64,000 nucleotides of DNA from Panorpa germanica (lineage: Eukaryota > Arthropoda > Insecta > Mecoptera > Panorpidae), in the NCBI GenBank assembly GCA_963678705.1, contig OY783213.1:10792451-10856450 (forward strand), written 5' to 3'. The notes below the pieces were generated by a model. The model was not told the origin of the DNA and made no database searches. It saw nothing but the letters and a program-made list of their open reading frames with translations. The position numbers and the translations under genes are program-made. Of this stretch, positions 1-27,169 are shown in pieces. Numbering within the stretch: the stretch's first letter is position 1; the number at the start of each line of letters is the position of its first letter.

Positions 1-714
1 CACCTGGACGAGGCTTAGCTACTGGTTTATGACTGATAACGTCTCTATAAAATAAACAAAAACATGATTAAAAGACATCCGGAAAGAATAATACAATACA
101 AGAGCATATAGATAGATACTTACTCCACATAATCATGTGTTAGTAAATCAGCGAATGTATATCCAAACATGCCCCAGACGTCACCGCAGAAAAATTTAAT
201 TTTCTTTTCACGACATATGTTGTTTATTTTAATAAGTTGTTCGATATTAGATTTAATAATAACAACTACATCGAAGTTATTGTAGAAATCAGATTCTTTA
301 CTTTCAAGTGAAGATGGATCAGCAACTACTTCAACCATTGGATTTAATGCTTGTGCTCTTTGCAAACTTGCTTCTGCTCTGTTTTTGCCAAGAGAGTCAT
401 GAGATGTAAAAAACTGAGAGCATTTATCCGTCTCAGATACTAATTCATCGTCCAACAGTGTCATGGATTTAACTCCAGATAAAATTACATTTTTGGCTAC
501 TTCAGCGCCTAAACCATTTAATCCAGCTAAAAGTATACGAGCTGCACGTAATCTGAAACAATATTATTTTATGAAAATTAATACCAATGTATGATACAAA
601 TACATTTTTTGTAAAAACTAACCGTTTCTGAGATTCAAGGCCCCATAATCTTATTTGTCTGTCGTACAATTCAGCTTCTTCCTCAGTTAATTCAATTAAA
701 TTTCTATCACCCAT
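1..714 (-). CDS. Aos1: SUMO-activating enzyme subunit 1 (Aos1/SAE1), 5' part, 3 exons, runs off window
   Basis: Exons in transcription order are 714-623, 552-124 and 44-1 (incomplete). The start is the ATG at 714-712. Exon 1 ends at a GTTAGT donor and exon 2 begins after TTTCAG; the split codon CG|A restores ..SQKR-LRAARILL... Exon 2 ends GA before GTAAGT and exon 3 begins after TTTATAG, giving E then DVISHKPVAKPRPG. Aos1 pairs with Uba2 to form the E1 that adenylates SUMO and passes it to Ubc9. Visible family features are the N-terminal EEAELYDRQIRLWG motif, the ThiF-type nucleotide-fold loop AGLNGLGAEVAKN, LLDDELV, a conserved NRAEASLQRAQALNPMVEV stretch and GDVWGMFGYTFADL. These match the animal SAE1 pattern as I recall it. 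About 188 residues are present; the family is usually about 340, so the C-terminal half lies left of the window. It shares a spacer with the divergent SH3 gene. Confidence 0.95.
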
Positions 715-4200: not shown

Positions 4201-7200
4201 ACTTATAAGGTACAAAAATATATTCTGTATTTAATTCTTTTTTCTATTTAATTTATATATACTGCGATTAGTCTCGCTATATACATCTAACAATAATAGG
4301 TTTACAATAAGTGCATCTTGCACGATATGTGTCTAACGATACATTCGGATCTATTTATTATTTTATTTAATTAAGTCCTGAGACGCCATTATCTTCAGTC
4401 TGTTGAAGATAGTCCTCTCTTCCATTAGCTTGCACTACTAATATACTTTGATGGTTCACAAATCGGTTTTTATATTTCTCCGTTCGTGTTTTAATTTCTT
4501 TTGTCACTGTAAGTATATTTAAATCGTGGTGCACTCGTGACATAAGTTGTGATAATAATATTGTGATGTGTAATCATCAGATAATGCATGCAGTTTAATT
4601 GCAACTTACGTGTTACACTCGTAACATGTCATCTGATGTCATCAGTCATAGTTATTACTATCGTTTGTAAAAGATTCACAGGTTTATTATACAACCAAAA
4701 TAGTTTACGTTCAAGAATAAAGTACTTATGCGCTTGCTACAATGAATAATTCATGTTTACGAAGTCATTTACTCAAACAAGGCGTTCAGTCTATCTGCTC
4801 AAAGAATTTGAATTATAATAAAAAACATTCTTTGTTTTTGTGAATTGACTGTAAGATGTATAGACTTAAATTGCACGAGTATAAAATTTGCATTTTTACT
4901 GTATAAAAAGTCGTCTATCAATATTATTTATAAAACCTGTCATCAACAGATATTATAGAAGAGAAGATTTTACAATAACAATGTTAAGTACATAAATATA
5001 TTTAATTATATAGATTTTATAAATTAGCATACTTATATAAATTGATTGTTTAACATGCTTAAGAATGAAGTGACCAACGCCACAAAGAAATTGAATAAGT
5101 TATACTTTATTTAGATAATTTTTTTTAAAAGCTTGTTTAATTTTTGAATTAGCAAAAGGAGATTATTATAGAAATTATATTGCTTTGCCATCCAAAAAGA
5201 TTGTGTGAAAATTTAAGTTAGATAGTTTTTCAGAACACTGTTTAAAAATCCATTGCAATATTGTGAAGACACATCTCAACAGATGAAGACATCTCAAAAT
5301 ATATCTTGGAAATCACTGCTTTTAATATATCACTGGTATAATATACATAGCTAGTATTTGTAAGACGCAGACAAGAGATGAACTATTGTATGCTTTGGAA
5401 TGATGTAATGTTTAGAGCAATGTCATATGTATATCATTCGTTTTTTATTTTTCAAGGAAGGGGAGCGCATAAAACTCCTCCGGCAATTGGATTCCGATTG
5501 GTTTTTCGGTAGCCTTAGAAATGGATGCGAGGGTATGTTTCCTGTGAATTATATTGAAGTAAAGGTATCTTTCAAAAATGCGGAGAAAGCTGCAGCCCCA
5601 CCAACTAAGTTTATAACATCTTATCAACCAGCAATTGTAAAAGCGTTATATACTTTTAATGCAGAAACTTCAGAAGATTTGGGATTTCAGGTAATATTGT
5701 TTTAAATTTCAGATTTAATATTTTTTAATATGTGTTTTGCTCAAGGCTTATTTTGAATGAAACCAAAAAAATAATTTTCCCTTATATATTTAAATTGAAC
5801 CATATATTAACTGCATCATTCTGTTGATGTTACATATTTGTATTAATGAAATCAATCGTATTTATGGAAAACGAAATTGTCTTTTTTAGAATGTATTTGC
5901 AGATGCTATAAATTAGGTGCATAAGTTTTCATTTTATATTCATATAATTTGTATATTTTTGAGTTTAGCGCTTATCTTAGGGTCCAATAGGGTTTCCCTT
6001 CGTATTTTTCTCTGATAGGATCCGCGATAGCATATGCAAGGGTCTAATTTATGAGACAGGATACTATATCAAATACATTGAACTAGAATTGATTATACAT
6101 GTTTTGAAATTCTTATTTTGCAAGCTTAACATTCTCCTTTATTTATTTATTTCTTATTGTAATTTTAATTAAATTTTGGTTTAGTTTCTGTAAACTTTTT
6201 CCTGCCTACTGAAGTCATATTTTTTTAAATTGGTAAGGTTTTTTTAAATTGACTTCACGGACTACTTATTACTGGTGTTTCAGTTTCACTATTGAATTTA
6301 CTATAAGTACGTCTGAATATTCTATGATTGATCTCGATTAATTTGCCAATGACGCAAAATAATTCAATGACAAATGTATCACATGTTGACATTTTATATG
6401 AATATTAAATATCGTGTTTTTCATTTATTATTATTAAAATAAATTGATCAGATATCAAATATGTGTACAGTCAAGGCCGTGATACAAAATCCTGCTTAAT
6501 TTTTTAATACAGAATATTGAATTTATATACGATAAGAGAAATGAAACTATAGTACTGCCTGCTTCTTATGTTAAAAATATAACTGATAATTGATTTTTGT
6601 ATGTGGGTTATACGTGCGTACTACAAGTTAGACCTTGGTATTTGTACTGCATTTATCTGCAGGATTGCACAAGCCTTACATAATATGCAATTTCATATAC
6701 ACATTTGGATAAAATGTTCTTAAAATTCTTTTAAGTAGTTTACAATTTATTAAACGTTATTAATATTCGTGTAATCTCATAGTGTTTTCTTCAACTGTTA
6801 AAGAAAGCAACTCTTACTATACTTAAAACAATGCGTAATTATTTGATTAGACATCTGCTTGTTGATAAGCTGTTATCTGTTAAAGATTTCATGTAACTGA
6901 TAAAATTATGCGCAAATTGTTAATTTTTACAATAATATAACAAATGATAAGGCTTTTTATAATAATAAACGAATTTATGTATTTAAGATCGAATTAAGTT
7001 GTAGATAAGAAATCAACCCCAAGTTTTAAATAGAGTTTTGTATTCAACATTGGGTAGTAGTTGTTATTCTTATCAACTTCAACGTCAATTTACAAATACC
7101 AGTCATCTGTTTTCTGTAAACGTAGTGGTTGAAATGGATACTGATTATTTGCATTTGTATTACATATAATGATATCACGTTTTCAGGAAGGGGCGGACAT

Positions 7201-7503: not shown

Positions 7504-8771
7504 ACAATGAATAATTACAAAGGTGGTTATAAATAGAATATTTATTATTATTCAAGGCGTACTTTCACCTCTCTTTATCTCAAAATATCTAAAAACAAAA
7601 TTAATTTTCCAGAAAAATAGACGTTATTTTGTCGCCACTTATTTCTTGCGGTAAATATAATAGTGCGTATATGTATCTGGTTAATATTATTTGAAATCCT
7701 GGTTTAATTTCCTCATCTAGTAGGAGTTTTTTACTTATTGTTTATATATATCAAGGAAGATCTTTTGTAACCTTACTGGTGTTAAAACATTATTGATTTT
7801 TGTAGTTGTAAATGAATTGATGTAAAATTGTATTGTATTTTGAGATAGAGATTTTGAAAAATTTTCATGTATGAAATTTATAATCCAAAATAATAATAAT
7901 TTATTTATTTTATTTTATGTACCAATAGTTACCTAGCAGTGATTAAGTTTTGAATGTTTTCTTCTGCTTTATTATTTAGAATAATTTAGAAAAATCTAAA
8001 TTTAACATTGTAATCTTTGGTGATTACGTAAAAATATTCTGTGATACCAATTTTATGTATTTCGAAAATACTTGCATGATAAATTTTAAAAGATAAAAAA
8101 TAGTAAATTATGTTATTTAAACTAAAATGTTAATTTCTTAAAAATGTCTACAACATGATTTAATCAGGAAGTTAGGTACACTTAGTGTTACATCTACTTT
8201 AGTTTCTTTCCTTTTATGTTTTCTAAGCGCAGGTCGCTTCAAATATATATTTGATATTATCCATAATTGTGTTAAGATAACATTTTATTTTTGACTTTCA
8301 ATTGTTATTTAATTACTATTTTTATTAATCAGAATAATAATATTAATCAGTTAAACGTTAATTAAAATTTAATATAAAATCAATCAATCAAAAGAAATTT
8401 ATTATTTATTTTATTTTATGTATTATATTTATGTATATATATATGGTGCTTTATGTTATCCATTATATATTATTATATTGTTATATATTATTTAATAATA
8501 TTCTTATTTTATTATATCTTCATAATTAGCAATTATTGTTTAATTTATTGCGCCAAATAAACTACTTATAAACATATCTCCTACATTTCCTCAATTCCTA
8601 AGTATAACCCTTTTCCTAGTGCTATTCATCAATCGCATATTTAAAAATATATTTTCACGACATTTATGTACGAGTATTTCTAATTTTAGGAACTGTCTTG
8701 TATTAATTTAGGTCAGTTGTCATCACAAATTTATATTTGTAGAAAAAAAAGAAGTTATTTTGTAAATTATA
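7504..8771. other. AT-rich intergenic or 3' UTR stretch
   Basis: This AT-rich sequence follows the SH3 gene and contains extremely AT-biased runs at about 8340-8530. No coding region, RNA gene or repeat family was recognised. Confidence 0.5.
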
Positions 8772-8989: not shown

Positions 8990-11817
8990 ATAACGCATAA
9001 AATATTTAATAAGTAAGCTTATGATGTAAAATGTGCCTGACATATTTTGATACTACCATTGTATTTGTACATAACTGATATACTAGAATGATTTTAAAAT
9101 GTAATAAAGATTTTTTAAGCTTATGTGTTTTTTTTTGATGTTTTGTTACGTTATTTTTAATTTTATATATGAGATCTGAAAACTCAGCTTAAACATAACG
9201 CCGTTTGAGGAATGTAGTCCAAAATATCAGCAGCAACAAGATTGTGGATTATTAAGTACAATTACTGTATTATACGGAGCTTCAAAAAGTAATAACAGTT
9301 ACTAACACTAGTTCAAAGAGACAGATTTTCTGAAACTAATTAATTTTTTATAAATAATGTTAAAATTATATAAACTGTTAAAGTTCAGTGTTTGTATTTT
9401 GATTTAGCAAAGCTCACCACCATTCTATTGTATAGGAGATGGCACTAGCAGTATCATTAATTTCCATTAATATTTTAAATATGATTTTTAAATTGATACT
9501 TTTTATATTTATAAAAATGTAATCATAAATTGTTTATTTGCAGGATCTTTAAATGTAATTACCAGTATAATTGTAGTAACTATTAATGAAGAAAGTTATG
9601 TGTGAATTCCAACATTAGTTTATACTATTTATAGATATAATTATCAATTAAAAGTGTTGATTATTATGCAAAAATTCATTTGCTCAATTTTTAATTGATT
9701 TAATAACAAAATTTTGAATGCAAATTTTGAACCTTTAGTGAGCCTGGAATGATCAAAAAGATAACTAAGTATATACGAGTATATATCACAAACGCACTTC
9801 TTAAAATGAATTTAAAATAAGAATAAAACAGTTCAACTATATATAGCAAAATATTTGAAAATACTGTAGAATTCTATTCTTGGAAGAAGCGACCCTTCTA
9901 TATATATCACGTGATTAAGTTCCGCTTGATCTGTAATGTCATCGCTGTATTATATAGAGGTCATGAGCTTTGTGGAGCTTTAAAAGTTCAGGGCTTGAGA
10001 TGATACTTTAAGAGCTTTGAAGTTTTTATCTTTTACAATTTGTTTTTTTTTTTAGTTATTTTTGACATTTATGTTTCGTGTTACAATATCATTCGTTTTA
10101 GTTGTTGTTCCGGATGAACATCTTTTATTTATAATAAAAATGATTTTATCAGATGACAATTTAGAAAATTGTGAGAAATATTAATTTAAAATTGGTATAT
10201 TGGCAAAATAAATTTGAAATAGTATTGCAGAAACGTTGAAACAATATTTTATTGTCAGAATAAAGTTAAAGAACAATAAAACTTTTTGAAGTTAAAATTG
10301 TTGCATAAAATCAGGCGCATAACTGTTTAATTATGTTAGACTCGTAAAAATGTTATTGAAGCAGTTAAAATAAAAGTTTTATAAATTATAAACAAAAAAT
10401 ATGTTGTAATTGCAAGTTAAAGTAAGTAAAGTAAATGGGAAAATGCTTAAACATTTTATTGTACTTACTTGAACTAGTTTACTTGAGTAATAAAAGTTAC
10501 TAGTGCAATAACATGAGTGACCATATGTATTAGTAGCTATTGGTTGTTGGAACCTGAACGTATACCACCTTGTCTACTCCTGAAGGCTTGTCTAGTGAAG
10601 CTCTAAACGGTGCTACAATTCTATAGACGACTATACCGACTCATGTACATATTGCTGGAGGAGATTGAATATTTCAGGACTATTAACACTTTGTTTTGTT
10701 TCTGTATGTTGCATTAACGCCTTAGTCTATGGTGACAAAAGCCATAAATAATGTATGTAACAATGTATTCTATAGGTGATACTATGTTTGCCATTAAATC
10801 AGGCGTAGTTTCATACACAATTTATAATTTTATTACTTATTGCCATAAAATCAGGCGTAGTGCATCTTCATAAGAGCCATTCTCGTTTTATAATGTTATT
10901 ATGGTGGTCTGATATTAGTTTTGAATTTCTTTTTGTGAAAATGTCCACAACTTAAAAATAAGCTTTTTTAAAGAATAGTCTTACATTTACAGAATCCTTA
11001 CACTCAGAGTGTCTTTTGGCTTCTCGCTATCTAGGTTTTATATTATGCATATTCTCTCATGTTTGTTCTCCATTAAATTTCCCTCGAGATCTTTGGTATA
11101 TACTCATACATGTATATTTCTAAATTGAGAATTTATATATAATTATGTATTGTATTGTTTCAATTACTGACAAAAAATAGTATCTTGTGTCATATATGTT
11201 ACTGAATGTAACGAACTAGTAGGCTCAGCAAACATGTAAGAGGAATTTACGTAATATTAATGTATTAGATATGTTCAAGTAAAAAAATTCAAGGTTATAA
11301 TAGTTGCGTAAAATCAGGCGCATAATATTGAATTTAACGTATGAAACGTATTTCTTATCTGGTAATTCAAAATAACAATTTATGGTGGTCTATCAGTTAG
11401 TTTTATGGTTTGTAAATAAACTGTATGGATAAACCGCCATCAGCACCATGTTTCATGGTTATAAAGCAATATAATTACGAACCGCGGTTTTTGAAATACA
11501 ATCCAAATGTTCAGTTGGTGGTAAAATATACAAAACACAAATATAACCTCTTTGCCTTCGGCTGAATTGAAACTTCTGCGGTTTGGTTGATCTACTAGTA
11601 TGCATGCTGATTGACAGAGGCGAACTGGTATTACTGTGTCTAATGAAGCGGGCTTCCAATATGAATACTTGTGACTATATTTCTATACCTAGTTCGCCAC
11701 TGCTTAATGGAATTGTACCCGTATAATAGAACAGAAATCATTTGCGGTTGGAACCAGTATTGATATTTGAAGAAATAATTAATATTGATATAACAGATAC
11801 GTTATAATTTAAATAAA
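8990..11817. other. intergenic AT-rich stretch with a dispersed short motif
   Basis: No gene was recognised. Four copies of a motif close to ATAAAATCAGGCGYATA or ATAAAATCAGGCGTAG occur at 10301-10322, 10791-10809, 10841-10860 and 11303-11324, all on the plus strand. A shared ATGGTGGTCT also appears near 10902 and 11383. They look like fragments of a degenerate repeat. Confidence 0.5.
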
Positions 11818-11846
11818 CTAGCAGTTTGCCCCGTTGCAACGCAACG
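11818..11846 (-). mobile_element. Helitron-like 3' terminus (hairpin + CTAG), outer copy
   Basis: Read on the minus strand this is a hairpin CGTTGC-GTT-GCAACG (11846-11832), a short linker and CTAG (11821-11818), followed outside by T. A short GC-rich hairpin about ten bases before a terminal CTRR, with T outside, is the classical Helitron 3'-end signature. No Rep/helicase gene and no 5' TC end were found. It lies 152 bp from a related terminus at 11970. Confidence 0.55.
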
Positions 11847-11969
11847 AGTGTGTGTTAAGTGCTTGTTAGATTCTTTTGTTACATTTTTTAAAAGAATTTA
11901 TATATATACATATTTTATAATTTTAATTATTTGAAATGTAATGGACCAGTTCTTTGTTTTAGAGCATAA

Positions 11970-12000
11970 CTAGCCCTTAGCCCCATTGCCTGGCAATGGG
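11970..12000 (-). mobile_element. Helitron-like 3' terminus (hairpin + CTAG), inner copy next to the satellite
   Basis: On the minus strand there is a perfect 9-bp stem CCCATTGCC/GGCAATGGG (12000-11982), the linker GGCTAAGGG partly overlapping, then CTAG (11973-11970) with T outside. It resembles the outer copy in layout and in its flank, where GTGTG is followed by a TTGTTA-containing stretch. Satellite monomers start about 50 bp away on the element's interior side, as expected if the tandem repeat was internal to the element. Confidence 0.6.
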
Positions 12001-12049
12001 TGTGTATTATATGTTTGTTATAGAAAGAGAAACTTCAAGTGAGATGAAA

Positions 12050-13502
12050 ATTTGTTTTCAAAAAGATAAATTATTGATTTCTTAATATTTTTTGATGCAG
12101 TTATATCCATTTATATTTAAGAAGACGAACTGCGTTAAAATTTTTGAAATATATTGAATATTTTGGCTGTTATAAGGGGTTCTAAAAATTCATGGACTTT
12201 TTTTTCAAAAAGAAAAATTATTGATTTCTTAATATTTTTTGATGCAGTTATATTCATTTATATTTAAGAGGACGAACTGCGTTAAAAAATTTAAATATCT
12301 TGAATATTTTGGCTGTTATAAGGGGTTCTAAAAATTCATGGACTTTTTTTTCAAAAAGAAAAATTATTGATTTCTTAATATTTTTTGATGCAGTTATATC
12401 CATTTATATTTAAGAAGACGAACTGCGTTAAATTTTTTTTAATATCTTGAATATTTTGGCTGTTATAAGGGGTTCTAAAAATTCATGGACTTTTTTTCAA
12501 AAAGAAAAATTATTGATTTCTTAATATTTTTTGATGCAGTTATATCCATTTATATTTAAGAAGACGAACTGCGTTAAAATTTTTGAAATATATTGAATAT
12601 TTTGGCTGTTATAAGGGGTTCTAAAAATTCATGGACTTTTTTTTCAAAAAGAAAAATTATTGATTTCTTAATATTTTTTGATGCAGTTATATTCATTTAA
12701 ATTTAAGAGGACGAACTGCGTTAAAAAAATTTAAATATCTTGAATATTTTGGCTGTTATAAGGGGTTCTAAAAATTCATGGACTTTTTTTTCAAAAAGAA
12801 AAATTATTGATTTCTTAATATTTTTTGATGCAGTTATATCCATTTATATTTAAGAAGACGAACTGCGTTAAATTTTTTTTAATATCTTGAATATTTTGGC
12901 TGTTATAAGGGGTTCTAAAAATTCATGGACTTTTTTTCAAAAAGAAAAATTATTGATTTCTTAATATTTTTTGATGCAGTTATATCCATTTATATTTAAG
13001 AAGACGTACTGCGTTAAAAATATTTAAATATCTTGAATATTTTGGCTGTTATAAGGGGTTCTAAAAATTCATGGACTTTTTTTCCAAAAGAAAAATTATT
13101 GATTTCTTAATATTTTTTGATGCAGTTATATCCATTTATATTTAAGAAGACGAACTGCGTTAAATTTTTAAAAATATCTTAAATATTTTGGCTGTTATAA
13201 GGGGTTCTAAAAATTCATGGACTTTTTTTTCAAAAAGAAAAATTATTGATTTCTTAATATTTTTTGATGCAGTTATATCCATTTATATTTAAGAAGACGA
13301 ACTGCGTTAAATTTTTTTAAATATCTTGAATATTTTGGCTGTTATAAGGGGTTCTAAAAATTCATGGACTTTTTTTTCAAAAAGAAAAATTATTGATTTC
13401 TTAATATTTTTTGATGCAGTTAAATTCAATTAAATTTAAAAAGACGAATTGCGTTAAAATTTTTTAAATATCTTGACTATTTTGGATTTTATAAGGAGTT
13501 CC
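12050..13502 (+). repeat. satellite array, plus orientation, about 10 monomers of ~146 bp
   Basis: Landmarks TAAGGGGTTCT, TTCATGGACTTTTTT, TTTTTTGATGCAG and AAGACGAACTGCGTT recur every 146-147 bases; GGGG starts at 12176, 12322, 12469 and 12615. Ten copies of GATGCAGTT are present. Monomers 1-3 and 4-6 match as trimers (internal variants TTAAAATTTTTGAAATATA, AAGAGGACG, TTAAATTTTTTTTAATATC), giving a ~440-bp higher-order unit. The first and last monomers are the most divergent. No coding capacity. Confidence 0.97.
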
Positions 13503-13524
13503 TTATCGTGTCCATGAATTTTTA

Positions 13525-16500
13525 GAATTCCCTATAAAATTCAAAATAGTTAAGTTATTTTAAATTTTTTAACGCAGTTCGTCTTCTTAAATAGAAATGA
13601 ATATAACTGCATCAAAAAATATTAAGAAATCAATAATTTTTCTTTTTTAAAAAAAAGTCCATGAATTTTTAGAATCCCTTATAAAATCCAAAATAATTAA
13701 GTTATTTTAAATTTTTTAACGCAGTTCGTCTTCTTAAATATAAATGGATATAACTGCATCAAAAAATATTAAGAAATCATTAATTTTACTTTTTGAAAAA
13801 AAAGTCCATGAATTTTTAGAATCCCTTATAAAATCCAAAATAATTAGGTTATTATAAATTTTTTAACGCAGTTCGTCTTCTTAAATATAAATGGATATAA
13901 CTGCATCAAAAAATATTAAGAAATCATTAATTTTACTTTTTGAAAAAAAAGTCCATGAATTTTTAGAATCCCTTATAAAATCCAAAATAATTAAGTTATT
14001 TTAAATTTTTTAACGCAGTTCGTCTTCTTAAATATAAATGGATATAACTGCATCAAAAAATATTAAGAAATCATTAATTTTACTTTTTGAAAAAAAAGTC
14101 CATGAATTTTTAGAATCCCCTATAAAATCCAAAATAATTAAGTTATTTTAAATTTTTTAACGCAGTTCGTCTTCTTAAATAGAAATGAATATAACTGCAT
14201 CAAAAAATATTAAGAAATCAATAATTTTTCCTTTTGAAAAAAAAGTCCATGAATTTTTAGAACCCCTTATAAAATCCAAAATAATTAAGTTATTTTAAAT
14301 TTTTTAACGCAGATCGTCTTCTTAAATAGAAATGAATATAACTGCATCAAAAAATATTAAGAAATCAATAATTTTTCCTTTTGAAAAAAAAGTCCATGAA
14401 TTTTTAGAATCCCTTATAAAATCCAAAATAATTAAGTTATTTTAAATTTTTTAACGCAGTTCGTCTTCTTAAATAGAAATGAATATAACTGCATCAAAAA
14501 ATATTAAGAAATCATTAATTTTACTTTTTGAAAAAAAAGTCCATGAATATTTAGAATCCCTTATAAAATCCAAAATAATTAAGTTATTTTAAATTTTTTA
14601 ACGCAGTTCGTCTTCTTAAATAGAAATGAATATAACTGCATCAAAAAATATTAAGAAATCAATAATTTTTCCTTTTGAAAAAAAAAGTCCATGAATTTTT
14701 AGAACCCCTTATAAAATCCAAAATAATTAAGTTATTTTAAATTTTTTAACGCAGATCGTCTTCTTAAATAGAAATGAATATAACTGCATCAAAAAATATT
14801 AAGAAATCAATAATTTTTCCTTTTGAAAAAAAAGTCCATGAATTTTTAGAATCCCTTATAAAATCCAAAATAATTAAGTTATTTTAAATTTTTTAACGCA
14901 GTTCGTCTTCTTAAATAGAAATGAATATAACTGCATCAAAAAATATTAAGAAATCATTAATTTTACTTTTTGAAAAAAAAGTCCATGAATTTTTAGAATC
15001 CCCTATAAAATCCAAAATAATTAAGTTATTTTAAATTTTTTAACGCAGTTCGTCTTCTTAAATAGAAATGAATATAACTGCATCAAAAAATATTAAGAAA
15101 TCAATAATTTTTCCTTTTGAAAAAAAAAGTCCATGAATTTTTAGAACCCCTTATAAAATCCAAAATAATTAAGTTATTTTAAATTTTTTAACGCAGATCG
15201 TCTTCTTAAATAGAAATGAATATAACTGCATCAAAAAATATTAAGAAATCATTAATTTAACTTTTTGAAAAAAAAGTCCATGAATTTTTAGAATCCCCTA
15301 TAAAATCCAAAATAATTAAGTTATATTAAATTTTTTAACGCAGTTCGTCTTCTTAAATATAAATGGATATAACTGCATCAAAAAATATTAAGAAATCATT
15401 AATTTTACTTTTTGAAAAAAAAGTCCATGAATTTTTAGAATCCCCTATAAAATCCAAAATAATTAAGTTATTTTAAATTTGTTAACGCAGTTCGTCTTCT
15501 TAAATAGAAATGAATATAACTGCATCAAAAAATATTAAGAAATCAATAATTTTTCTTTTTTAAAAAAAAGTCCATGAATTTTTAGAATCCCTTATAAAAT
15601 CCAAAATAATTAAGTTATTTTAAATTTTTTAACGCAGTTCGTCTTCTTAAATATAAATGGATATAACTGCATCAAAAAATATTAAGAAATCATTAATTTT
15701 ACTTTTTGAAAAAAAAGTCCATGAATTTTTAGAATCCCTTATAAAATCCAAAATAATTAGGTTATTATAAATTTTTTAACGCAGTTCGTCTTCTTAAATA
15801 TAAATGGATATAACTGCATCAAAAAATATTAAGAAATCATTAATTTTACTTTTTGAAAAAAAAGTCCATGAATTTTTAGAATCCCTTATAAAATCCAAAA
15901 TAATTAAGTTATTTTAAATTTTTTAACGCAGTTCGTCTTCTTAAATATAAATGGATATAACTGCATCAAAAAATATTAAGAAATCATTAATTTTACTTTT
16001 TGAAAAAAAAGTCCATGAATTTTTAGAATCCCCTATAAAATCCAAAATAATTAAGTTATTTTAAATTTTTTAACGCAGTTCGTCTTCTTAAATAGAAATG
16101 AATATAACTGCATCAAAAAATATTAAGAAATCAATAATTTTTCCTTTTGAAAAAAAAGTCTATGAATTTTTAGAACCCCTTATAAAATCCAAAATAATTA
16201 AGTTATTTTAAATTTTTTAACGCAGATCGTCTTCTTAAATAGAAATGAATATAACTGCATCAAAAAATATTAAGAAATCAATAATTTTTCCTTTTGAAAA
16301 AAAAGTCCATGAATTTTTAGAATCCCTTATAAAATCCAAAATAATTAAGTTATTTTAAATTTTTTAACGCAGTTCGTCTTCTTAAATAGAAATGAATATA
16401 ACTGCATCAAAAAATATTAAGAAATCATTAATTTTACTTTTTGAAAAAAAAGTCCATGAATATTTAGAATCCCTTATAAAATCCAAAATAATTAAGTTAT

Positions 16501-19430
16501 TTTAAATTTTTTAACGCAGTTCGTCTTCTTAAATATAAATGGATATAACTGCATCAAAAAATATTAAGAAATCATTAATTTTACTTTTTGAAAAAAAAGT
16601 CCATGAATTTTTAGAATCCCCTATAAAATCCAAAATAATTAAGTTATTTTAAATTTGTTAACGCAGTTCGTCTTCTTAAATAGAAATGAATATAACTGCA
16701 TCAAAAAATATTAAGAAATCAATAATTTTTCTTTTTTAAAAAAAAGTCCATGAATTTTTAGAATCCCTTATAAAATCCAAAATAATTAAGTTATTTTAAA
16801 TTTTTTAACGCAGTTCGTCTTCTTAAATATAAATGGATATAACTGCATCAAAAAATATTAAGAAATCATTAATTTTACTTTTTGAAAAAAAAGTCCATGA
16901 ATTTTTAGAATCCCTTATAAAATCCAAAATAATTAAGTTATTTTAAATTTTTTAACGCAGTTCGTCTTCTTAAATATAAATGGATATAACTGCATCAAAA
17001 AATATTAAGAAATCATTAATTTTACTTTTTGAAAAAAAAGTCCATGAATTTTTAGAATCCCCTATAAAATCCAAAATAATTAAGTTATTTTAAATTTTTT
17101 AACGCAGTTCGTCTTCTTAAATAGAAATGAATATAACTGCATCAAAAAATATTAAGAAATCAATAATTTTTCCTTTTGAAAAAAAAGTCCATGAATTTTT
17201 AGAACCCCTTATAAAATCCAAAATAATTAAGTTATTTTAAATTTTTTAACGCAGATCGTCTTCTTAAATAGAAATGAATATAACTGCATCAAAAAATATT
17301 AAGAAATCAATAATTTTTCCTTTTGAAAAAAAAGTCCATGAATTTTTAGAATCCCTTATAAAATCCAAAATAATTAAGTTATTTTAAATTTTTTAACGCA
17401 GTTCGTCTTCTTAAATAGAAATGAATATAACTGCATCAAAAAATATTAAGAAATCATTAATTTTACTTTTTGAAAAAAAAGTCCATGAATATTTAGAATC
17501 CCTTATAAAATCCAAAATAATTAAGTTATTTTAAATTTTTTAACGCAGTTCGTCTTCTTAAACATAAATGGATATAACTGCATCAAAAAATATTAAGAAA
17601 TCATTAATTTTACTTTTTGAAAAAAAAGTCCATGAATTTTTAGAATCCCCTATAAAATCCAAAATAATTAAGTTATTTTAAATTTTTTAACGCAGTTCGT
17701 CTTCTTAAATAGAAATGAATATAACTGCATCAAAAAATATTAAGAAATCAATAATTTTTCCTTTTGAAAAAAAAAGTCCATGAATTTTTAGAACCCCTTA
17801 TAAAATCCAAAATAATTAAGTTATTTTAAATTTTTTAACGCAGATCGTCTTCTTAAATAGAAATGAATATAACTGCATCAAAAAATATTAAGAAATCAAT
17901 AATTTTTCCTTTTGAAAAAAAAGTCCATGAATTTTTAGAATCCCTTATAAAATCCAAAATAATTAAGTTATTTTAAATTTTTTAACGCAGTTCGTCTTCT
18001 TAAATAGAAATGAATATAACTGCATCAAAAAATATTAAGAAATCATTAATTTTACTTTTTGAAAAAAAAGTCCATGAATTTTTAGAATCCCCTATAAAAT
18101 CCAAAATAATTAAGTTATTTTAAATTTTTTAACGCAGTTCGTCTTCTTAAATAGAAATGAATATAACTGCATCAAAAAATATTAAGAAATCAATAATTTT
18201 TCCTTTTGAAAAAAAAAGTCCATGAATTTTTAGAACCCCTTATAAAATCCAAAATAATTAAGTTATTTTAAATTTTTTAACGCAGATCGTCTTCTTAAAT
18301 AGAAATGAATATAACTGCATCAAAAAATATTAAGAAATCATTAATTTTACTTTTTGAAAAAAAAGTCCATGAATTTTTAGAATCCCCTATAAAATCCAAA
18401 ATAATTAAGTTATATTAAATTTTTTAACGCAGTTCGTCTTCTTAAATATAAATGGATATAACTGCATCAAAAAATATTAAGAAATCATTAATTTTACTTT
18501 TTGAAAAAAAAGTCCATGAATTTTTAGAATCCCCTATAAAATCCAAAATAATTAAGTTATTTTAAATTTGTTAACGCAGTTCGTCTTCTTAAATAGAAAT
18601 GAATATAACTGCATCAAAAAATATTAAGAAATCAATAATTTTTCTTTTTTAAAAAAAAGTCCATGAATTTTTAGAATCCCTTATAAAATCCAAAATAATT
18701 AAGTTATTTTAAATTTTTTAACGCAGTTCGTCTTCTTAAATATAAATGGATATAACTGCATCAAAAAATATTAAGAAATCATTAATTTTACTTTTTGAAA
18801 AAAAAGTCCATGAATTTTTAGAATCCCCTATAAAATCCAAAATAATTAAGTTATTTTAAATTTTTTAACGCAGTTCGTCTTCTTAAATACAAATGAATAT
18901 AACTGCATCAAAAAATATTAAGAAATCATTAATTTTACTTTTTGAAAAAAAAGTCCATGACTTTTTAGAATCCCCTATAAAATCCAAAATAATTAAGTTA
19001 TTTTAAATTTTTTAACGCAGTTCGTCTTCTTAAATAGAAATGAATATAACTGCATCAAAAAATATTAAGAAATCATTAATTTTACTTTTTGAAAAAAAAG
19101 TCCATGAATTCTTAGAATCCCCTATAAAATCCAAAATAATTAAGTTATTTTAAATTTTTTAACGTAGTTCGTGTTCTTAAATAGAAATGAATATAACTGC
19201 ATCAAAAAATATTAAGAAATCAATAATTTTTCCTTTTGAAAAAAAAGTCCATGAATTTTTAGAACCCCTTATAAAATCCAAAATGTTTAAGATATATCAA
19301 ATTTTTCAACGTGGTTCGTCTTTTTAAATATAAATCGATATAACTGCTTTAAAAAATATTATTAAATCAATAATTTTTCTTTTAGAAAAAAATGTCCACG
19401 AATTTAAAAAAGTCGCATAAAAATCAGACA
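13525..19430 (-). repeat. satellite array, inverted orientation, about 40 monomers of 147 bp
   Basis: This is the reverse complement of the same family. The landmark AACGCAG starts at 13571, 13718, 13865, 14012, 14159, 14306, 14453 and 14600, exactly 147 bases apart; one-base A-run differences give 148 in places. Subtypes are defined by GCAGTTCG/GCAGATCG, ATAGAAATGAA/ATATAAATGGA, CAATAATTTTTC/CATTAATTTTAC and TCCCTTAT/CCCCTTAT/TCCCCTAT. The order of subtypes repeats: monomers starting 13571-14453 match those at 15485-16367, and those from 14600 match those from about 17690. The last monomers, after 19162, are degraded. It is about 78% AT by eye and non-coding. Confidence 0.97.
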
Positions 19431-21769
19431 CGCGTAGATATTTAAAATGCAATGAAGCACTTATTTACTTTAGAGCATAACGGACATAACTGCATCAAGA
19501 TTCTTCGAAGAACCTCAACATTTTTTATTTTATTAATTTTACCATATATTTGAAAAGGGCACCTTAAAGCCAGTAGACACGTACTTATTTAAAAATTAAT
19601 TAATATTTAATAAACAGAAGCAAGCTAGCGGAGAGTAGGCTTAAGCCGATTTTTTTAAAAATTTAATTTAATTGTATTGCCTTTATCTGAGTTATTAATA
19701 ATGTGAACTACTAAAAATACATACTATATATACTCGCAGCAAAGAAGTGTTACTTTTGTTGCTTGCAATTCAGGCGTAAAACTCCCTTATAAATGATTTT
19801 TACTTTCAAAATATTTTCAAATTAGCTGTTCATTATTTTAAAGTGTAGCAAATTTAAATCCATAAAGAAATGGCTAAATATTGACTTCTGGAAGTACCTT
19901 ACTTAAATGTATTATTGTACTTAAAATATTAGGATGTATTTGACATAAAATTTTACTATTTACAATTTTTTTTTAGTGAGCATATTCAAAATACTAGGCA
20001 GTATTTTTAGAGAAATACATGAAACCTATAAATATTAAATAACAACAACAAAAAAATGAAAACAAGAAATGTTCATTTATTAATTTTATTACCAATTTTA
20101 ATTACGATATTCCACATATAGCTTTCAAATACAATAACAATTCAAATCAAACAATATATGTAAAATCAATATTTGCATTAATTAAATTGTGTGGTAACAT
20201 ATTCATCCACTGTATAAAATAACATGTACAAAAACAGAAAGTTTCAAATTGATATTGCATTACATTGAAGCTATTTATAAGTTTATAAAACCATACTTTC
20301 TTATTTCTCATTCTTGAAACAGATAGGACGATAATAAAATGATTGTAGGGTGGTTTTGGAGGGAGTGGGGAGCTGAGGAGGAGTTAATAGGTGATATTAG
20401 GTTAACATAGCGGTTATATTTACGAGATTTTTAGGAAAAGTATAACATTCAATTTATTTTACAACATTAGTATTTTATTTACAGATTATAAGATTCAAAA
20501 TCAGGAATTATGGTGACAATAGTAAGTTGTATACATAAAGGAGAGAGGGGGTTAGCCAGTAAATCATAATACGACATAGAAATCACCGTTAGTTCATGAT
20601 GAAGTCCATACGAAGTCAATTTCTTTAAATTTGCTACGAATTCCACTTGACATTATTATGGTTTGTTTACTGGCTAAGTAATTCATTGGAAACCTCAGTT
20701 ATTTTCACTTAATTTACCCTAGAGTCTTTGAGTGATATTGAAACTCACTTTTCTCAGCTTTTTTATACCGGTAACTGAATCCTATTGATAATACTTTTGG
20801 TATTTATGATTGTATTTATTAAGGTATTATCTTAAGCGTCACAGACACACTGGTTTTAACATCCTTGTTACGTCTTGTCACACTTTACGCCACCTCGTGC
20901 AACGTAATCAAGCTAGTTTTGCTATTTTGTCAACTACTCCCCTTTCGCCTTTGAATACAAATACAAATATTACATTTAATCTATTTTTAATTTTAATATT
21001 AAATTTAACAGTGTAAGAATTACAATAATGATGTGAGTTAACAACAATTGATATATGTTCATCTTTTTTGCACTTAAATTAATTTAGTACATTTACAATA
21101 TTTATTAAAACAATATTTTTAAATTCAATTATACTATCTCTTTCACACTAATGAGTGAATGACCTTGATTGATTTATTCGAATCTTTATTAAATATTTTA
21201 ATCTATTCTTGTACAATTAGCGTGGGAAAGTGCATCGTAAAGATCGTAATAATTACATAAAGTACAAGTGCTAGAAGTGCAGATTGTATTATTTAATATA
21301 CATAAGTTGATATGTTTGAAAACAGAAATATATATTTATGGTTATTTATTTTTATTTTTCTTTTTCTTTTTAAATTATCACAACATTTCTTCGGACAATT
21401 TCTATCTCAATGCAATTTGAAATTATATTTTCTATGTACAAAAATTTCCTTATAGATTCGTTTTATTTCGTAGGCTGTTGGATAAACTGGTAAATTCAGA
21501 TTTGTTTAATGTTTTTAAATTTTTACAATTTATTTTAGCTTTTTATGTGTTTTGAATATTTTTATATTTGAATTTACCGGTTTTGCAGTAACCGTACCAT
21601 TTTGAAACGAATCTATTACATTTTAATGATATCCCCTTGCTCTATTTTTATTTAAAATCACTGAGGTTAACACCAGCTTGTGTTTTATTATTTAAATTAA
21701 GTTTAAGAAAACTTTTAGTAGCCCGGATGTTTTTCCACAATTTATTTAATTTATAACACACAACTTATT
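19431..21769. other. intergenic stretch right of the satellite
   Basis: A degenerate satellite remnant continues to about 19500 (CGGACATAACTGCATCAAG at 19481). TTTAGAGCATAAC occurs at 19469-19481 and also left of the array at 11958-11970. The rest is AT-rich with no supported gene. A 68-codon ORF at 20810-21016 shows no family motif and I treat it as chance. Confidence 0.5.

Positions 21770-24765: not shown

Positions 24766-27169
<2,404 letters not shown>

Follow-up and report, generated by a model that had tools for sequence, protein, structure and literature searches.

A Helitron-type end most likely inserted into a decayed satellite monomer in Panorpa germanica

When the end of a rolling-circle transposon lies directly beside a satellite array, did the transposon give rise to the satellite, or did it land in one that was already there? 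Helitron-linked satellites are well described in passages of three papers (PMC12628747, PMC7492417, PMC11136912), and sections of a review recount satellites that expand from arrays inside Helitron or Helentron elements, arrays with an element on one side only, nested arrangements, variable orientation, and the capture of tandem repeats by Helitrons (PMC12628747). We addressed this question at a locus of Panorpa germanica, in a window of 64,000 nucleotides (the whole stretch of DNA that was analysed), for which a first, sequence-only reading had proposed that a Helitron-type element seeded the adjacent satellite.

Two Helitron-type 3′ ends beside a two-armed satellite

Two Helitron-type 3′ ends, A and B, lie on the minus strand, both with the layout hairpin, 8–10 nt, CTAG and then T (Table 1). 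They emerged from a scan of both strands of the 64 kb in which CTAGT had to be preceded by a perfect hairpin (at least 5 bp in the stem, at least 4 of them G/C) ending no more than 15 nt away; among 84 CTAGT sites (41 on the plus and 43 on the minus strand), only these two qualified. End A has its CTAG at 11818–11821 and a 15-nt hairpin at 11832–11846 (perfect 6-bp stem CGTTGC, 10 nt before CTAG), while end B has its CTAG at 11970–11973 and a 19-nt hairpin at 11982–12000 (perfect 9-bp stem CCCATTGCC, 8 nt before CTAG). Sixty first-order Markov sequences of equal length yielded a mean of 0.05 such ends per sequence and a maximum of 1; the three simulated matches scored 10, 10 and 11, against 15 for B and 10 for A, so that end A is not beyond this null by motif score alone. 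Since the tails of A and B are homologous over 51 bp (z = 8.2, with 0/500 shuffles reaching the score), we accepted end A as real; only this ~51 bp of the 11970–12050 tail of B is common to both. As single-stranded DNA, each tail folds with 8 pairs (z = −2.76 for B and −2.56 for A; for each, 3 of 200 shuffles folded at least as well), and the tails have a GC content of 44–49% vs. ~28% for the window.

The sequence-only reading had described two such minus-strand termini, spaced 152 bp from CTAG to CTAG, with the satellite on their interior side. Both are present and are the only two that the scan recovered, and the array, which starts at 12051, lies interior to A and B alike. The accompanying suggestion that the 152-bp spacing is itself about one monomer was wrong: the interval combines ~51 bp of tail with AT-rich sequence and the 43-bp relic of a monomer. 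The AT-rich inner part of A also matched 25479–25521 (BLAST, E = 3e-4), a similarity taken as low-complexity. Farther left, a motif around AAATCAGGCG occurs four times over a span of 1.1 kb to the left of the satellite (10277–10322, 10788–10861, 11280–11325), twice in a 46-nt direct repeat (80%) and twice in a 22-nt repeat (95%).

The 147-bp satellite (monomers of 146–148 bp, 21% GC) runs from 12051 to ~19405 and decays up to ~19690. It is organized in two oppositely oriented arms, L and R, with the first 1.45 kb reading in the opposite direction to the other 5.9 kb. Mean identity was 95.4% within L (36 pairs) and 96.0% within R (780 pairs), compared to 89.8% between L and R (360 pairs), and on these values each arm forms a subfamily of its own. 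Blocks of 13 and 21 monomers are repeated within the R arm: across 13511–19394, mean identity was 97.5%, 98.5% and 97.5% at lags of 13, 21 and 24 monomers, respectively, vs. 95.8–96.9% at all other lags from 1 to 25, a pattern that we interpret as a trace of unequal exchange. At the right edge, identity to the consensus falls from 86% in unit R39 to ~54% in the next unit, yet 0/500 shuffles reached the score of the latter. The satellite profile match continues to 19500, the second decayed unit matches the first at an offset of ~147 bp (0/500 shuffles), and a 27-nt direct repeat (74%) recurs there with a spacing of 147. Outside the array, 8151–8350 on the plus strand is possibly a dispersed relic monomer (0/300 shuffles reached its score against the satellite consensus); its part 8151–8300 matched this consensus best out of 2248 real windows outside the array (69.9; mean 36.9, sd 7.9).

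Table 1 Features of the locus, in positions of the window; in this table and in the text, a hyphen between bases marks an insertion point.
Feature	Position	Strand	Basis or description
End A, Helitron-type 3′ tail	11818..11868	−	Motif scan, fold, 51-bp homology to B
S′, satellite monomer relic (43 bp)	11927..11969	+	R-arm orientation, ends at the CTAG of B; BLAST, shuffles, phase, boundary
End B, Helitron-type 3′ tail	11970..12050	−	Motif scan, homology to A, fold
Satellite L arm	12051..13501	−	9 complete monomers (146–147 bp) and an outer partial unit
Inverted junction	13502..13509		8 bp without monomer match, no A-TC
Satellite R arm	13510..19394	+	40 monomers of 147–148 bp, 96.0% mean identity, block repeats
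Decaying right edge	19395..19690	+	Two strongly diverged monomers, ~147-bp register kept

A monomer relic flush with the CTAG of end B

Directly outside end B, the relic S′ shares 34 of its 43 positions with the central part of the decayed monomer at the right edge (ungapped alignment; 0/500 shuffles), a likeness to be read with the 54–55% identity of that linking unit to the satellite consensuses and with the inflated chance similarity of DNA at 21–28% GC, for which the shuffles were first-order Markov. BLAST within the window recovered the same pairing, from 11928–11970 to 19439–19481 (81.4% over 43 bp, E = 2e-6). We also counted ungapped matches to S′ of at least 25/43 on both strands of the whole window. 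The plus strand held 45, i.e., S′ itself, 40 in the array and 4 elsewhere (each 25), and the minus strand 2 (both 25), neither of them in the array. Besides S′ itself, all plus-strand matches of at least 26 fall in the array, and the maximum outside it is 25 on either strand. Within the array, 39 of the 40 matches share phase 44, the remaining one being at phase 43.

The similarity stops where the transposon end begins: the last ten bases up to 11969 are all identical to the decayed monomer (10/10), against 1–2/10 in windows past the CTAG of B. The sequence-only reading would have been refuted by insertion junctions away from CTAG-T, a test that it passed for B, where a homology boundary falls at CTAG-T. 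At the corresponding point of the monomer, all 49 complete units of the array carry T on the plus strand (A on the minus strand), which gives A-T; an A would thus be the expected target base of B, although the nearest relative of S′, the decayed edge unit, has G-T and not A-T at this point.

Judging from this boundary, B most likely inserted into a pre-existing, decayed monomer. A junction inside a decayed monomer places satellite sequence on the outer side of B as well, which fits insertion better than seeding, and if B inserted into an existing monomer, then its place beside the satellite is no proof of seeding. Since the right edge of the array is likewise decayed but in phase, edge decay can account for S′. 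Only one side of the insertion of B can be seen: beside B, the remaining half of the interrupted monomer was not found, and the L/R junction holds no 5′ TC end. A gapped comparison of 11862–11970 with the consensus monomer was not significant (z = 1.2, 62/500 shuffles).

One similarity is at odds with the relic. Among 2248 real windows compared to the right edge (19101–19540), the highest score went to 11801–11950 on the reverse strand (73.0; mean 42.3, sd 6.6; 0/1000 shuffles), a stretch that includes part of S′ in the contrary orientation. This alignment is heavily gapped and runs across the CTAG of A into the flank, and its pieces taken alone were not significant (tail A, 89/1000 shuffles; 11871–11950, 53/1000). 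At the right edge, the monomer is weakly similar to its own reverse complement (3.5 bits, E = 1; 37/500 shuffles), which may contribute to the match. Overall, the match counts against raising further the odds that B inserted into the satellite.

An insertion of A into the satellite was also considered and rejected: the flank of A (11738–11817), compared to the consensus and the decayed edge on either strand, gave z between −0.6 and 1.4, and a wider flank (11601–11818), with z = 2.5 on the plus strand (5/500 shuffles), was unremarkable among real windows.

Inversion of the L arm and the origin of the satellite

When 12051–13509 is computationally un-inverted, unit L00 runs into unit R00 with the monomer register kept within one base, a coincidence that we estimate at ~2% if the 147 phases were equally likely. 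The unit touching the tail of B is not decayed (96.6% identical to the L consensus), while the outermost L unit (13369–13501) is edge-like, with 92.5% identity to the L consensus vs. 95.9–99.3% in the nine others. This outermost unit and R00 have in common two states that neither arm consensus shows; the decayed edge unit carries one of the two as well. From the register and these states we infer that the L arm would be an inversion inside one older array, and not cargo of B. The possibility that A and B, once the L arm is un-inverted, have the same junction between tail and monomer start, in the same phase, found no support, with shuffle counts of 831/1000 for the inner tail of B and 612/1000 for 11867–11927 of A, and with A–B alignment scores of 72.1 or 65.8 (depending on the breakpoint) after un-inversion vs. 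72.0 as the sequence stands.

We favor, with moderate confidence, a composite locus in which B is a passenger in the satellite and not its source. A 147-bp AT-rich satellite in plus orientation would have decayed at its edges, and a non-autonomous or truncated Helitron, represented by end B, would have transposed into a monomer that was decaying at the left edge, using the A-T of the monomer and leaving its CTAG flush against the T. The 5′ part of B would later have been lost. Separately, a block of ~10 monomers (12051–13509) would have been inverted and homogenized into its own subfamily. In this order of events, the satellite block is probably older than the insertion of B.

The alternative that survives best, although we regard it as unlikely, is a Helitron-borne satellite: A would be a non-autonomous Helitron whose internal 147-bp array expanded to ~50 copies and of which only the 3′ end is still recognizable (an “intermediate” form), and B would be a related copy nested in a monomer. 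Monomers do lie on the interior side of A, with S′ starting ~57 bp past its tail, and none was detected on the outer side (11738–11817 vs. the consensus, z = 0.6 and 0.0). The sole Helitron-type ends found in 64 kb are also close to satellite sequence, with 109 bp between A and the first relic and 81 bp between B and the array. In oysters, arrays linked to a Helitron on one side are common, accounting in the relevant portion of PMC11136912 for 1373 of 5333 Cg170/HindIII arrays in C. gigas and for 24–28% of such arrays across six oyster species.

Several observations speak against a Helitron-borne satellite. A scan of both strands for 5′ ends (A-TC and TATA-like motifs) gave 20 matches, 2 of them on the plus strand inside the array and none distinctive; the array was not found bounded by both element ends, although a diverged 5′ end may have escaped the scan. 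The sequence between the tail of A and S′ does not match the start of a monomer (612/1000 shuffles). As the sequence stands, the monomers beside A (plus) and beside B (minus) are in opposite orientations relative to the tails, unlike the constant orientation described for C. gigas elements in part of PMC7492417. This last objection is weakened because the L arm beside B was probably inverted, and further eased by arrays in different directions being mentioned in the review (in a passage of PMC12628747).

No coding partner or relative was found in the material covered. None of the 5 open frames scanned by Pfam (of 17 listed in the window) encodes a Rep/helicase, and pattern scans of phage, viral and prokaryotic sequence collections returned no relatives of the ends or the monomer; a looser scan matched 2 contigs, both without the palindrome. 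A literature text search with short sequence words from the locus gave only an unrelated match, and no report linking Helitron, satellite DNA and 147 bp was found. The window has 28.5% GC and its genes look split, which suggests an animal, probably an insect, genome; Pfam identified host gene fragments in a ThiF-family (E1-like) open frame at 120–563 (minus strand) and in an SH3-domain open frame at 5409–5705 (plus strand).

The proposal that a Helitron seeded the satellite therefore stands in part: the Helitron-like 3′ ends are there and A, with monomers on its interior side only, is compatible with a transposon origin without proving it, while the junction of B inside a decayed monomer fits insertion better than seeding by B. 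A fuller scenario, which we consider doubtful, would start from a canonical-type Helitron family with a 147-bp repeat inside its 3′ end: A would have expanded to ~50 monomers, the related B would have inserted into a monomer of its own family, and an inversion would have split the array into two separately homogenizing subfamilies. If this were true, the locus would show a transposon midway in its conversion to a satellite.

It is also conceivable, but quite improbable, that the L arm arrived with B, i.e., that a Helitron carrying ~10 L-type monomers inserted into an R-type array, fusing element-borne and standalone arrays at 13501–13510. The distinct subfamilies and opposite orientations of L and R would be expected in this case, as would the intact L unit at the tail of B. 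However, the 8-bp junction between L and R lacks the A-TC of a possible 5′ end of B (across the 75 bases examined, ATC occurs once, at 13487, inside monomer sequence), and the R arm starts at a phase other than the interrupted one. Phase is instead restored by a simple inversion, and the two non-consensus states common to the outer L unit and R00 also argue against such cargo. Finally, that the two ends are chance look-alikes is extremely improbable: A alone indeed scores no better than three matches from 60 simulated windows, but B scores above every simulated match, the homology between the tails extends beyond the motif, and the boundary of S′ coincides with the CTAG of B.

Relation to known rolling-circle elements

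We next compared the locus to described rolling-circle systems. In the parts of PMC4067079 that define them, canonical Helitrons have an A-T target and a 16–20-nt palindrome ~11 bp from the 3′ end, while DINE-1, a Helentron-type element, and HINE elements have subterminal inverted repeats and a TT or T-rich target, HINE elements with a 3′ palindrome 8–35 bp from the end. Both ends here have the 3′ CTRR terminus (as CTAG) and the 3′ palindrome of canonical Helitrons, of 19 nt in B and 15 nt in A, the perfect stem of A being slightly short. By these sequence traits, i.e., CTRR, a near-end hairpin and a T after CTAG, A and B fit canonical Helitron 3′ ends. Likewise, Hel-2 of Lepidoptera, a canonical insect Helitron, is described in part of PMC4344730 with a hairpin before the 3′ CTAG, A/T dinucleotides at its flanks and internal repeats. 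The likeness to canonical insect Helitrons is by description only, and our locus differs from them in being without a 5′ TC end, a complete element or a Rep/helicase gene.

DINE-TR1 of Drosophila, the subject of Dias et al. 2015, is reportedly a rolling-circle element associated with tandem repeats. In this combination DINE-1 and DINE-TR1 resemble our locus, as they do in repeat length, for which we rely on the sequence-only reading. Two traits leave room for the likeness to DINE-1 that the same reading had drawn: TT follows CTAG at both ends on the minus strand (with T directly 3′ of CTAG), as for a Helentron-type TT target, and a 3′ palindrome also occurs in the related elements. Less in keeping with it are CTAG, a Helitron-type terminus that fits canonical Helitrons, and the consensus target at B, which is A-T. 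Membership of the two ends in Helentrons or DINE-1 is thus uncertain.

The oyster Cg170/HindIII arrays are similar in having a rolling-circle component on one side only and monomers of mostly 140–180 bp (in passages of PMC11136912, PMC12628747 and PMC7492417), and arrays in different directions and nested elements are mentioned in the review (in a section of PMC12628747). The satellite carriers of C. gigas are classed as Helentron-type (HINE) elements in part of PMC7492417, whereas the ends here have CTAG and one of them interrupts a monomer. Whichever reading holds, this kind of locus is already known, and what is added is a local sequence of events that places an element end inside a decayed monomer.

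Taken together, these observations carry a warning, namely that a satellite with a Helitron end next to it may have been the target of an insertion, and monomer relics outside CTAG help to separate insertion from seeding. A clear case of a canonical-Helitron satellite would widen the current picture, since the best worked-out cases, as presented in the passages cited, are Helentron-type (oysters, Drosophila). Where a relic abuts CTAG, as here, the events at one locus can be put in order, and this order is testable in relatives of the species.
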